Under the pieces are notes generated by a model. That model ran no database searches. It was not told where the DNA came from and worked only from the letters and a program-made list of their open reading frames with translations. A DNA stretch of 64,000 bases from a virus, in IMG/VR virus record IMGVR_UViG_3300044639_001309, positions 56,347 through 120,346 of that record; one strand, given 5' to 3'. Shown piece after piece: positions 2 through 5,097 of this stretch; within the stretch, counting starts at the first letter, position 1, and every line of letters begins with the position of its first letter. Both the position numbers and the translations under genes were made by a program.

Positions 2-316
2 AAGAGACTGCAAACTCATAGCGATGTTAAAAAAATTATTGTTGTTACACATACAGTACCGTCTAAAGATTTGATTAGCCATGACATTGAATTAGTTGGA
101 ACACATAGATACAATACCATGGGCAATAGTTTTATTCAACAAATACTACACGAAGATTCGGAAAACAAGATTAGCCATTGGTGCTTTGGACATTATCATG
201 GCAGCGTTGATCGTGTGATTGACGGAATACGATATGTTAACAACTGTAGAGGAAGAGGCGATACACAATGGAAAAAGTCAGTGTATCATCCTCTACGAAT
301 TGAAGTTAATTTTTAA
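2..316 (+). CDS. Calcineurin-like metallophosphoesterase, C-terminal part (5' end outside window)
   Basis: The reading frame is open from base 2, so the gene begins upstream of the window. The visible 104 residues contain a strand followed by VVTHTVP, and later WCFGHYHGSVD. These match the two late metal-binding histidine motifs (GHT-like and GHxH) of calcineurin-like phosphoesterases. Such enzymes hydrolyse phosphomonoesters or phosphodiesters with two metal ions; the substrate cannot be told here. The gene is on the plus strand and converges with clpS, with the two stop codons overlapping by 4 bases. A TTG at 71 could be mistaken for a start, but motifs upstream show it is internal. Confidence 0.75.
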   Translation, partial: KRLQTHSDVKKIIVVTHTVPSKDLISHDIELVGTHRYNTMGNSFIQQILHEDSENKISHWCFGHYHGSVDRVIDGIRYVNNCRGRGDTQWKKSVYHPLRIEVNF

Positions 317-615
317 GCAGTCTCGGGTTCTAATTTAATCTGCAAGGGATACCCTTCGGTTCTAGCACTAATAGTAATTTCAATTCCCTTTTGCTCAGCA
401 ATTTCATATGGCAAAACTGCAACACACGCAGATCCAGCGTCATGAATATCTGTTGTGATTTTTTCAGCGGTAACTGCGTTATATTCGAAATATTGAATTA
501 AACTTTCAATCACAAATTCCATAGATGTTTGATTGTCGTTGATATAGATAACCTTAAACATTGGAGGCTCTGCCAGTTTTACGTTTGGTTTAATTCTATT
601 TTTAATGTCGGCCAT
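313..615 (-). CDS. clpS: ClpS-like adaptor of the ClpAP protease (N-degron recognin)
   Basis: This is a 100-residue protein with the ClpS core. KVIYINDNQTSMEFVIE (residues 21-37) matches the family motif KVILxNDDYTPMEFV. The N-degron pocket residues are recognisable: N26, D27 and H58 align with E. coli N34, D35 and H66, while the third acidic residue is N28 (D36 in E. coli). ClpS delivers proteins with N-terminal Phe, Leu, Trp or Tyr to host ClpA. The N-terminal extension (about 17 residues) is short, as in other ClpS. It lies downstream of hsp20 and in the same cassette as clpX, suggesting control of host proteolysis. The D-to-N change could shift specificity. Confidence 0.85.
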   Translation of the reverse strand: MADIKNRIKPNVKLAEPPMFKVIYINDNQTSMEFVIESLIQYFEYNAVTAEKITTDIHDAGSACVAVLPYEIAEQKGIEITISARTEGYPLQIKLEPETA

Positions 616-684: not shown

Positions 685-1119
685 TTATGAAGCGTAGTTA
701 ATTGCAATAGTCTTTGGCTTGGCTGAGTCAGGAATTACACGCTCTAGCTTGACAGATAAGATTCCGTCCTTGGCCACAGCATCCTTAACTTCAACATAAT
801 CACCTAGACTAAATATGCGAATAAACTTACGAGCACTAATGCCTTGATGACGGAAGATATATCCTTCGGGCGTTGTTTCTGTTTTTTCGCCGGTGATAAT
901 TAGCTCACCGTCTTTAACAATAATTTCAAGATCGCCTTGATTAAATCCAGCCACAGCAACCTGTACTTCGTAGGTGTTTTCACCTGTTTCTACAATGTTG
1001 TATGGAGGGTAATTAGTTGCGGCGTGATCGATTTGATTAACAATACGATCAAATAGTCTATCAACGCCAATAGCGTTACGATAGAAGGGGGTAATATCAA
1101 AAGATGTGATTTTAGTCAT
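685..1119 (-). CDS. Small heat-shock protein, Hsp20/IbpA family
   Basis: This 144-residue protein has the alpha-crystallin domain at about residues 37-130. NIVETGENTYEVQVAVAGF matches the bacterial IbpA start of that domain, and GELIITGEK and GILSVKLERV are the last strands. The C-terminal tail carries the family's I-x-I-type motif (TIAINY). sHsps hold unfolding proteins in a refoldable state without ATP. T4-like cyanophages commonly carry one. The start is supported by AAGGAG 6 bases upstream of ATG. A sigma70-type promoter and a leader hairpin lie upstream (1155-1215). Confidence 0.92.
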   Translation of the reverse strand: MTKITSFDITPFYRNAIGVDRLFDRIVNQIDHAATNYPPYNIVETGENTYEVQVAVAGFNQGDLEIIVKDGELIITGEKTETTPEGYIFRHQGISARKFIRIFSLGDYVEVKDAVAKDGILSVKLERVIPDSAKPKTIAINYAS

Positions 1120-1670: not shown

Positions 1671-1898
1671 TTATTCTCCGGCATTGTTCTTGACGTTTTT
1701 GACTTGATATTCGCAGGCTGACCAGGTAATAAAAAATAACGTAAAATGCTCGGCTTGATTTAATCCGAGTCGATATTTTAAACCCTTGGCCACTTTAGTT
1801 GTATAAGGTATGTTGTGTTTTTTTGCCCAAAGAGCAACTGCATCTTCAAGGTCATCAAAATTGTCCATTGCTTTTAAAATATCAAATTCAATGTACAT
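1671..1898 (-). CDS. Small protein of unknown function
   Basis: The product has 75 residues, acidic at the N-terminus and basic in the middle, with one hydrophobic stretch (HFTLFFITWSACEY) too short and mixed to be a clear membrane segment. I do not recognise a family. The start ATG overlaps the stop of the bS21 gene by one base (TAATG), so the two are probably translationally coupled, and the thioesterase begins 4 bases after its end. Confidence 0.6.
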   Translation of the reverse strand: MYIEFDILKAMDNFDDLEDAVALWAKKHNIPYTTKVAKGLKYRLGLNQAEHFTLFFITWSACEYQVKNVKNNAGE

Positions 1899-2098
1899 TA
1901 ATAAAGTTTTTTTGGAAGCTCTTGGGTTTGTAGATGTTTACGCCAACGTGCTTTAGCCTGACTTTTTTTAAGTTTTTTTTCTTCTGTTGGCTTTGTATAG
2001 TGTTCACGTTCGCGAAGTTCGAGTAATAGTCCCGAGTTGGCTATTTTTTTCTTGAACTTTCTTAGTGCTTTTTCGATGTTGCCGTCTGTGACAATCAT
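1898..2098 (-). CDS. rpsU: 30S ribosomal protein bS21 homologue
   Basis: The 66-residue product reads MIVTDGNIEKALRKFKKKI and continues with ELREREHYTKPTEEKKLKKSQ, the bS21 signature (xVxxGExxxxALRRFKRxxExxG then REFYxKPxxxR). bS21 binds the 30S platform near the mRNA 3' end of 16S rRNA and helps initiation. Phage-encoded bS21 is known from pelagiphages and huge phages and may bias host ribosomes to phage mRNA. I chose ATG at 2098; an in-frame TTG at 2110 would add four residues. It overlaps the next gene by one base and follows clpX. Confidence 0.92.
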   Translation of the reverse strand: MIVTDGNIEKALRKFKKKIANSGLLLELREREHYTKPTEEKKLKKSQAKARWRKHLQTQELPKKLY

Positions 2099-2120
2099 TG
2101 CTTTCCCCAAAATATCTCCC

Positions 2121-3317
2121 TTATATGTTATCAGGATTATTTATTAGGTCCGCATTGATATTCACGCATTTAATTTCTCGTTTGACATAGTCTCTTAGTT
2201 TAAACATGTGTGGCATTAGTGCTCTTTCAACTTCTGATTGCAAAGCTCTTGCTCCAGTTCCTGAATTAATTGCACGTTTTACAATTGCGTCAATACTGCT
2301 AGATTCAAAATTTAATTCCACTTGATCTTGTTTAAAAATCCAACGATATTGATCCAGGATATTGTGTTTTACTTCGGTTAGCACACGAGTCATCGAGTGC
2401 TCATCTAATTCTTCCAAGGTAACCACACTAGGAAAACGTCCTACAAATTCAGGAATCATTCCAAAACGCACTAGATCATCAGGAGTAACTTGAGTTAGGT
2501 CAGCATCTCTCTTAGAAATCATTTCTGTGTTAAATCCAATATTTGATCCGTTGATACGATTTTTTAAAATGCTGTCAAGTCCAACAAATGCACCACCGGT
2601 AATAAACAAAATTTTACTAGTGTCGATTTCAATCATCTCGCCGCCAGGGTGTTTTCTACCACCGGAGTTTGGAATACGACATACAGTACCTTCAACTAAC
2701 TTTAGCAATGCCTGTTGAACGCCCTCGCCCGACACATCCCGAGTGATACTGGTGCTTTCACTTTTACGTGCAATTTTGTCAATCTCATCTACAAATACAA
2801 TTCCACGCTGTGCTTTTTCAACGTCATTGCCCGATGCCGCATATAACCGACTAATCAACATTTCAACGTCGTCACCAACATAGCCTGCTTCAGTAATACT
2901 GGTAGCATCTGCAATAACAAAAGGAACATCTAAATATCTTGCCACTGTCTTGGCCAGAAGTGTTTTACCCGATCCAGTTGGGCCAAGCATGAGGATGTTG
3001 GCTTTGGATAGTTCAATTTCTGTTCCTATGTTTTGTAGTCGTTTGTAATGATTAACAATTGCAACGCTAAGAACAACTTTTGCACGATCTTGACCAATGA
3101 CGTATTGATCAAGAAATTCTTTGAGTTTCATGGGATCCATGCGTTCTACGTCATTAACAATTTCTGCAGGTGGCTGGTCTTCTAACAAGTCCTGGCATAA
3201 TGTGACACATTCGTTGCAGATTGCAACATCGTCACTGACAATTAGTTTTTTTACTACGTCTTTTTCTTTGCCACAAAAGCTACAGGCGTGTTTGTGTTGT
3301 TGCAGTACAGCAGTCAT
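2121..3317 (-). CDS. clpX: ClpX, AAA+ unfoldase of the ClpXP protease
   Basis: The 398-residue protein has every ClpX hallmark: an N-terminal C4 zinc domain (C12, C15, C34, C37), Walker A GPTGSGKT (112-119), pore loop GYVG (145-148), Walker B IVFVDEID (173-180), the RKH pore loop (221-223) and an IGF loop (260-262), which docks on ClpP. No clpP is seen in the window, so the protein presumably caps host ClpP. The length is close to bacterial ClpX (about 424). It starts by TAATG overlap with the stop of the upstream membrane-protein gene and is followed by bS21. Confidence 0.97.
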
Positions 3318-4825
3318 TAAATTGGTCCTTGTTTAAGTTTTTCTTCGATTTGGGAACGTTCACTGTCATTGAGCAGTTCAGGGTCGTACTCGCCTGAACT
3401 TATTTTACTAATTAAATAATCAATGTAAGAGTCATTATATACATATCTGTCGGTTAATTTTTTATCAACTTCAATCCATTTTTGTCCATTGTATTTAAAT
3501 AACTTGGTTGGTTGGTATGCTGTGTTAAGATACATTTCTCCTTTTGCAGAAGACTCGGGTAATTGGTCTCCATAAGGAATGTCTAAATCTTCATTGCCAA
3601 TATCTAAGTAATCTTCCCATGGGTAATGATCGATAAAGCCTGCGTCAACTAATCGCCGTTGATTTTTTAAAGTTTCATTGGGGTTATCTGCTTTCCAACG
3701 ACGTTTAGCTTCTTTGACTGCGTCTGAATCGTTTTCGACCTCTTCTTCGACCTCTTCTTCGACCTCTTCATTAACTGGGTCACAATCCGGGTTAGCACAA
3801 ACTAATCCTATGCTGGGTACATCGACCAGTGGTGTACCACATTTTACACAAGGTATAGGATCTGATTCAATTGATAGTGTTTCAACTGGATGGGTTTCTG
3901 GATTTGTAAACATCCAACCTGGAGGATGTAGGTTGTTCGGAAATAACTCGTCTTTGATTATCAAGTCACCAGTGGGCAAATCTTCGTTGGCTGATTCTTT
4001 GATTTGATCAATTTGATCGTTGGTTAACGGCCCATCGTCTTCTTCGTATGCTGGTGTTTTTTCTAAATCTTCTCTACGCCACTTTAAACTTTCAGTTGCG
4101 GCCAACAACATCATGATAGCCAAGGGATCAAACACAGCAACAATGATAATGATCACCCAGGTCACTGCTTTTTCCAGCAAGTTGGCATCAGGGTTATCAC
4201 CATAGATAAATGAAGCAATGTATTTTATTGGTCCTACTTCGGCTTCTACTTTTCTAACCTCGGCGGCAATCGGCGCTCGCTCTTCAGCAAATATGCTAAT
4301 TCTTTTCTGTTCGGCTTCGATTTCAGCAAGGAGACGCCCACGTTCCTTTTGTTGCGTCCTACGGAGAGCCACGGCTTTATCTGCACCTGTTTCTGAAGTG
4401 CTTCGGCCCATGACCTGGTCCACTGCCTCATCCATTTGTTTAAGAGCTTTGCGGTTTGCATCTATGTTCTCTTTGGCTGTTTTAATTTTTTCATCGTAGA
4501 CTGCAATCTTGGCCTGCACATCACCTGATACTAGGCTTTGATCACTGTGGGCTTTTGACAAGAAGCCAAAAATACCCATTGATGTTATTATCATCAATAT
4601 ACCAACTGCAGGCACTAGATACAATTTCATGGTTAACCGGCAACGGTGCCAGTATTCGTGTAGCCAGACTGTTACAACTAGTTTAGCAACCTCAAGTATC
4701 GACCCCATAATCATGATAGGCACTACTGCCGCGGCAAATATAGCCGCAAGACCTGCAATTGAATAGAAAGCGGCAATGGCAGATAAAGACAGGGCTATTG
4801 CTAAAGTTAGTAGTGACAAAAACAT
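3317..4825 (-). CDS. Membrane protein with coiled coil and zinc ribbon, unknown function
   Basis: The 502-residue protein has hydrophobic segments at about 1-50 (two helices), 68-90 and 221-243. A long charged coiled coil (about 100-195) lies between the last two. After the membrane part come an acidic linker, a zinc ribbon with C326, C329, C343 and C348, an EEVE triple repeat (from a 12-bp DNA repeat near 3737-3773) and a basic-acidic tail. The layout suggests an inner-membrane anchor presenting a metal-binding domain to the cytoplasm. I do not recognise a named family. The stop codon overlaps the clpX start by one base. Confidence 0.75.
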
Positions 4826-4827
4826 AG

Positions 4828-5097
4828 TTAGTTATTTACCGGTTTTTTAATCTCTTGTTTGATCAACTCAACTCCTGTTTTGAGCGTAATCCACACGCCA
4901 AATTTAGAATCAGGCACTTCAAACCAAACATCAACTCGAGGGTTATCTGACCATCTAATTTTATCAAGTTTACGCCGTACCTTTCCCTGGCAAGACCATT
5001 CTTTACCAAACAAGCGGCGACACTCAGCCATGACATTATACCATTGCTGAGAGTTTTTTATTGCAAAATAAAACTTGTGGGATTTTTTATTTTCCAT
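4828..5097 (-). CDS. Small basic protein of unknown function
   Basis: The 89-residue product is rich in Lys, Arg and Trp (QQWYNVMAECRRLFGKEW, KIRWSDNPRVDVWFEV). It may be a small beta-rich domain. It is separated by 2 bases from the membrane-protein gene downstream. No family is recognised. Confidence 0.55.
   Translation of the reverse strand: MENKKSHKFYFAIKNSQQWYNVMAECRRLFGKEWSCQGKVRRKLDKIRWSDNPRVDVWFEVPDSKFGVWITLKTGVELIKQEIKKPVNN

Follow-up and report, generated by a model that had tools for sequence, protein, structure and literature searches.

A 502-aa membrane protein, here called MEM, is encoded directly upstream of clpX on the minus strand (3317..4825) of the window, the 64,000-nucleotide stretch of DNA analysed here, and represents the long-tailed form within a broad family of membrane proteins found in phages and bacteria. 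Judged from its relatives, the linkage of MEM to clpX is real and recurrent but not specific to clpX, and we lean slightly towards a reading in which MEM would serve as an envelope or scaffold membrane protein of a cassette carrying bS21, Hsp20 and Clp genes. These comparisons delineate a phage membrane protein that is abundant and uncharacterised, with a long form that is a marker of the bS21/Hsp20/Clp cassette, and they set the recurrent linkage of the two genes apart from an adaptor mechanism, which they do not favour.

Gene neighbourhood of MEM

The window is phage DNA, T4-like as judged by eye from its gene content, and is contained in a 120 kb virus record; near-identical or identical MEM proteins occur in records of 175 kb and 342 kb. 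The MEM open reading frame starts with ATG and belongs to a series of genes transcribed in the order DNA ligase, a 71-aa ORF, p89 (4828..5097, an 89-aa protein that is a recurrent neighbour directly upstream of MEM), MEM, clpX (2121..3317), ribosomal protein bS21 (1898..2110), a 75-aa protein, a thioesterase-like protein, Hsp20 (685..1119) and clpS (313..615), all coordinates given here being on the minus strand. bS21 and Hsp20 were called from profile matches, and ClpS scored over the Pfam ClpS cut-off and under the NCBIfam ClpS cut-offs. The clpX product scored 505.8 bits against an NCBIfam clpX cut-off of 370.75 and contains the zinc domain and AAA+ motifs of the family; the Walker motifs, the pore loop, RKH and the IGF loop can all be made out in it.

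As the preliminary description had stated, the MEM stop codon lies over the clpX start, with one base common to TAA and ATG (TAATG). Overlaps of 1 or 4 nt are seen in 15 of the 73 neighbouring minus-strand ORF pairs in the window, a count that uses crude starts and includes the MEM/clpX pair, so a single such overlap carries little weight and a conserved one carries more.

Predicted architecture of MEM

The core of MEM (4088..4822), delimited by hydropathy and predicted structure, comprises TM1 (4766-4822), TM2 (4694-4756), TM3 (4562-4630), a helical hairpin predicted as a helix pair (4202-4528) and TM4 (4088-4174). Hydropathy peaks at aa 26-44, 68-86 and 224-242, the first of which fuses with a hydrophobic stretch at aa 2-20 recognised by eye as TM1, together with charge, suggest about four transmembrane helices, in agreement with the four-helix membrane protein described before. 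Both AlphaFold models contain helices throughout the core, including a helix pair at ~aa 100-208 that corresponds to the periplasm-size coiled coil of the preliminary description; the full-length model (pLDDT 75.7, pTM 0.37) is weak in the first ~100 residues, and a core model from a more diverse alignment scores better (84.1 and 0.62). The hairpin is probably periplasmic, as a weak charge bias of loop 42-68 suggests, with four K+R against two D+E. The core is conserved across 66 aligned members, most of them picked by a motif at aa 83-93, and homology over the whole core, membrane helices and hairpin alike, is detectable in these 66 members, in 116 relatives from genome contigs, of which 80 were kept, and in the distant Salicola phage SCTP-2.

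The remainder of the protein, from aa 256, forms an acidic tail (pI 4.2, 56 D+E, 23 K+R), again as described before. It contains a lineage-specific, zinc-ribbon-like C-x2-C-x13-C-x4-C pattern at aa 326-348 (3782..3850), which overlies predicted strands at 332-336 and 340-343 and bears out the earlier assignment of a zinc ribbon as a ribbon-like element. An acidic stretch at aa 352-368 (3722..3772) is followed by the tail motif WK..NP..K...G.I...PW at aa 377-403 (3617..3697), which is also found in phages without clpX nearby, and by a YNGxxW segment (aa 442-455) and a C-terminal helix (aa 467-497) within 3335..3502.

A sequence search of the PDB with MEM returned nothing at E≤1, and fold comparison to the PDB gave no match at E≤0.001 for either the full-length or the core model. 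A second look with VIA found helical hairpins with Z up to 10.5, an arrangement common for long helices, and six fold matches in BFVD at E≤0.001 were all to uncharacterised or unnamed proteins.

Recurrence of the MEM-clpX linkage

Near relatives were taken from 80 loci listed of at least 599 stretches with full-length relatives; L005 and L060 were dropped, removal of near-copies left 62, and leaving out L010 gave 61. L001 encodes a protein identical to the window MEM, which replaces it in the alignment, and L001 stands for the window in the junction counts and the distance correlation. That full-length relatives abound and that a clpX match is present in 75 of the 80 listed loci argue that the observation is not chance. 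Among the 61 dereplicated relatives clpX follows MEM directly in 55, with 1- or 4-nt overlaps in 35 as located by script, other overlaps in 3, gaps of 0-4 nt in 12 and no start located by the script in 5; a gene intervenes in 4, and 2 have no clpX in the locus. In five loci (L009, L016, L017, L040 and L041) ~840 nt separate MEM from clpX, and a start codon lies at the MEM stop.

This conserved junction fits the suggestion of the preliminary description that MEM could recruit ClpX or substrates to the membrane, here taken as a membrane-anchored adaptor or tether that would keep phage ClpX(P) at the inner membrane and supply it with substrates, and several other findings point the same way. All 75 loci retain the zinc-domain pattern of ClpX and 71 of them an IGF-like loop, two ClpP-family genes are present in each of five large related records, clpS belongs to the cassette, and SCTP-2 has the same adjacency. 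In a ClpX tree of 26 rows, 19 labelled as near MEM and 7 not, where "nearby" here and in the tail comparison below allows one or two intervening genes and up to ~2.1 kb, the ClpXs near MEM do not make one clade: L200 and L202 group with Pseudomonas phage PA5oct, and L192/L217 and SCTP-2 stand apart, the SCTP-2 and PA5oct branches being long and unsure. The tree requires 4 label changes, at least 2 of them on starred branches; shuffled labels give 6.2, and 12 of 500 shuffles reach a count that low. Repeated adjacency is the expectation of cooperation, and a deep shared gene order with losses would give the same pattern; the separate ClpX lineages together with the SCTP-2 adjacency make it plausible that cooperation exists at the cassette level.

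The MEM tail does not follow ClpX

If MEM recruited ClpX through its tail, a tail element would be expected in common among MEMs with clpX nearby, and none was found. The zinc-ribbon pattern occurs in 21 of the 61 aligned proteins, the tail having no cysteine in 38, and the ribbon was rejected as a general ClpX dock. In a BLAST comparison of 24 long-form tails, half of them with clpX nearby and half lacking it, a set that does not contain the SCTP-2 tail, the window tail matched 10 of the 12 tails without clpX versus 7 of the 12 with it; among these seven, L207 and L230 are near-copies of each other, and L229 and L243 have clpX ~1.8 kb off. Four tails with clpX nearby (L192, represented by 45 aa of tail only, L200, L202 and L217) match no other among the 24, the tail of L197, also with clpX, matches only clpX-less tails, and the window tail does not match the clpX-less tails of L234 and L242. 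In addition, the WK..NP motif pattern occurs in 14 of 26 long forms and in none of 39 short forms, and the 45-aa tail motif region, for which 7 of 8 records gave a match, shows 53% identity to its counterpart in a 353 kb record without clpX over the cut-off. From these tail matches, the distribution of the motif pattern and the identity in the clpX-less record, the tail follows lineage and cassette, not clpX, and the comparison does not support a dedicated ClpX adaptor acting via tail or zinc ribbon.

Distance correlations were computed over 45 of the 61 loci. The MEM tail correlates with the ClpX zinc domain at 0.73 (partial 0.40) and with the AAA part at 0.67 (partial 0.29), and reaches its highest value with p89 (0.79, partial 0.56); since the tail tracks p89 more than the ClpX zinc domain, we see no signal specific to ClpX, although the higher value for the zinc domain than for the AAA part is a weak hint of contact. 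The tail of the clpX-less L032 lies at distances of 0.541-0.614 from its four nearest relatives versus a mean of 0.508 at that core distance, as relaxed constraint would produce, which is a second weak hint of a link to ClpX. By the tail/core divergence ratio, however, the clpX-less near relatives are not high, L032 ranking 27 and L079 ranking 6 among 61, lowest first. An SspB-like, XB-type C-terminal pattern was found in none of the 61 MEM proteins. Any conserved contact with ClpX would have to be made via the membrane core.

Co-occurrence across the wider family gave a divided answer to the pairing of MEM with clpX. The pair is directly adjacent in near relatives and SCTP-2, but beyond them clpX accompanies only half of the long forms and none of the short forms (counts below), and a search of 12 whole records chosen for having no clpX beside MEM found clpX over the family cut-off in none, two having weak partial matches below it. 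These records include ones of 353, 146 and 133 kb, and all 12 are linear and may be fragments; L219 and L233, counted as clpX-less in the tail comparison, lay outside this search. The co-occurrence with phage ClpX expected of a ClpX adaptor is therefore absent from much of the family, although hosts possess their own ClpX, which may serve instead. Taking the two sides together, we consider it unlikely that MEM is an adaptor or tether for ClpX. Two of the records, those of L198 (G009) and L256 (G010), contain ClpP-family genes and no clpX over the family cut-off, and the second ClpP-family match of G010 (C1:56508-57029) has an in-frame TAA.

Long and short forms of the family

A wider sample came from a DNA pattern built on the conserved SMGIFG/SKAH sequence, 80 loci being listed of at least 120 stretches; selection by an exact motif misses divergent members. 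Loci counted as testable if the ORF was closed and at least 2.5 kb of sequence followed it (43 of 80), and forms of at least 400 aa were counted as long; the 37 loci excluded for an open end or less than 2.5 kb downstream include L197 and L217, both long forms with clpX. Downstream of the testable long forms, S21, Hsp20 or clpS was present in 18 of 20, the other two having clpX only, and clpX was present in 10. None of the 23 testable short forms had clpX, S21, Hsp20 or clpS downstream in the sequence at hand. Upstream of MEM, Hsp20 was found in 8 loci whose MEM is short or cut off, three of them among the 23 testable (L214, L231 and L236). The 365-aa MEM of SCTP-2, next to clpX and near clpS, runs contrary to this division into long and short forms.

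Other neighbours raise a lysis or superinfection-control function, in which the hairpin would act on the wall or block incoming DNA. Of 80 loci obtained with the copy of phage Mosig, all 63 that were testable encode a glucosaminidase directly upstream; several long forms are preceded by a cell-wall hydrolase gene (by Pfam, for the one tested) and by genes judged lipoprotein-like by eye; and in 17 of the 80 motif loci a short form sits between DNA-polymerase-like and UvsX-like genes (labels by eye), roughly the position of imm in T4. Around the window MEM, however, no hydrolase was found in the ten genes scanned, and holin and spanin profiles gave only scattered weak hits, with spanin matches in 3 of 61 for each of two families and in SCTP-2. 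Homologues also appear to reside in bacterial chromosomes: 116 relatives were confirmed in genome contigs and 80 kept, 10 of which have matches to phage query genes, and of 8 bacterial contigs inspected by eye, 7 have a chromosomal-looking setting. We regard a lysis or superinfection-control role as improbable.

In all 12 loci where it was clustered, among them L256:5098-5481, a ~130-aa protein (cluster 9) directly follows MEM, and the one tested had no Pfam or PHROG match at E≤0.01; one of these loci, L197, also has clpX. Use of the XacN1 copy on viral contigs gave 31 pattern matches, from which no relative was confirmed.

A model for MEM in the cassette

Taking these observations together, we speculate, with a confidence slightly better than even, that MEM is an envelope or scaffold membrane protein of the bS21/Hsp20/Clp cassette. 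Among the relatives compared, long forms sit in a cassette with bS21, Hsp20, ClpS and, often, ClpX. The glucosaminidase, cell-wall hydrolase and lipoprotein-like neighbours described above provide a link to the envelope. The hairpin would engage the cell envelope, and the cytoplasmic tail, via the WK..NP..PW and YNG..W/C-terminal segments, would hold a cytoplasmic phage partner at the membrane, so that MEM would act as an envelope or scaffold factor. The clpX overlap could set co-translation and dosage in the operon, from which docking need not follow, and a secondary contact of MEM with phage or host ClpX is possible. An envelope role does not fit every context, as the 17 of 80 loci with polymerase-like and UvsX-like neighbours and 7 records in which no glucosaminidase was found indicate. 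The readings considered here overlap, and their probabilities need not sum to 1.

A broader and quite doubtful version is that the MEM core would be the membrane seat of a phage-encoded proteostasis unit: phage ClpX(P), ClpS, Hsp20 and bS21 would be gathered there, on the inner membrane, the tails would be interchangeable, and ClpX would have joined in more than one lineage. If it is true that MEM brings phage proteolysis to the membrane, phages would build their own membrane-bound quality control.

Residues 408-466 of the window MEM match phrog_11591, a virion structural protein family, with E 8e-5 over a tail segment only, and that PHROG family matches the tail of 52 of 61 members at E≤0.1. 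A second, weaker match of the YNG..W tail was found in each of six records, with E between 3e-6 and 1.8e-3; the open frames concerned are 440-502 aa long. An anchor for virion assembly, in which the YNG..W segment in common with a virion-type phage protein would bring assembly to the membrane, seems very unlikely even with these matches, the common segment being ~40-47 aa and several relatives having none. Two of the second proteins, at L100:1351-2676 and L104:328-1830, have no MEM-like membrane core by eye.

Comparison with known systems

PF14362 (DUF4407) is matched weakly by 39 of the 61 near relatives at E≤0.1, with a best value of 4e-5, and by 13 of 66 diverse members at E≤0.01, and the window MEM itself does not match this profile. 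A Tetraspanin model matches more members than DUF4407 does (44 of 61 near, 33 of 66 diverse), and both may reflect membrane-helix composition. The likeness of MEM to SspB and other ClpX adaptors is limited to the genetic link with ClpX; MEM forms near clpX have no tail element common to all.

Among the matches listed, and within the parts of these sources at hand, the literature on phage ClpX/ClpP, bS21/S21, DUF4407 and membrane-anchored ClpX adaptors does not describe MEM. Phage-encoded ClpX has been suggested to act in virion assembly or replication control (PMC7824862, PMC11242549), and the accessible portions of these two papers mention no membrane partner for it. MEM was matched in 13 phage records, none of which belongs to the ClpX-encoding jumbo phages Atu_ph07, Phosso, PA5oct and phage G. 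PA5oct has clpX-S21-heat shock-clpS; in its locus (L308) two genes separate S21 from the heat shock protein, and an annotated FtsH-interacting membrane protein and FtsH lie further on.

Within ten genes of bS21, published phages carry Hsp20 (n=127) as well as two CLP proteases (n=50 and 47), according to PMC9723584, a paper whose available text does not mention a MEM-like membrane protein. The phages of that study itself, so far as its available text goes, have bS21 among virion genes, unlike the window cassette. bS21 is reported there, in the same text, to be transcribed late in a phage group other than that of the window, from which late expression of the bS21/Hsp20/Clp cassette may be inferred by analogy.

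SCTP-2 differs from the window in that its MEM is 365 aa long, is similar in the core only and is separated from clpX by a 71-nt gap. Like the window, it has the MEM homologue (29% over 280 aa) directly upstream of clpX (gp195-gp194), with clpS two genes on.
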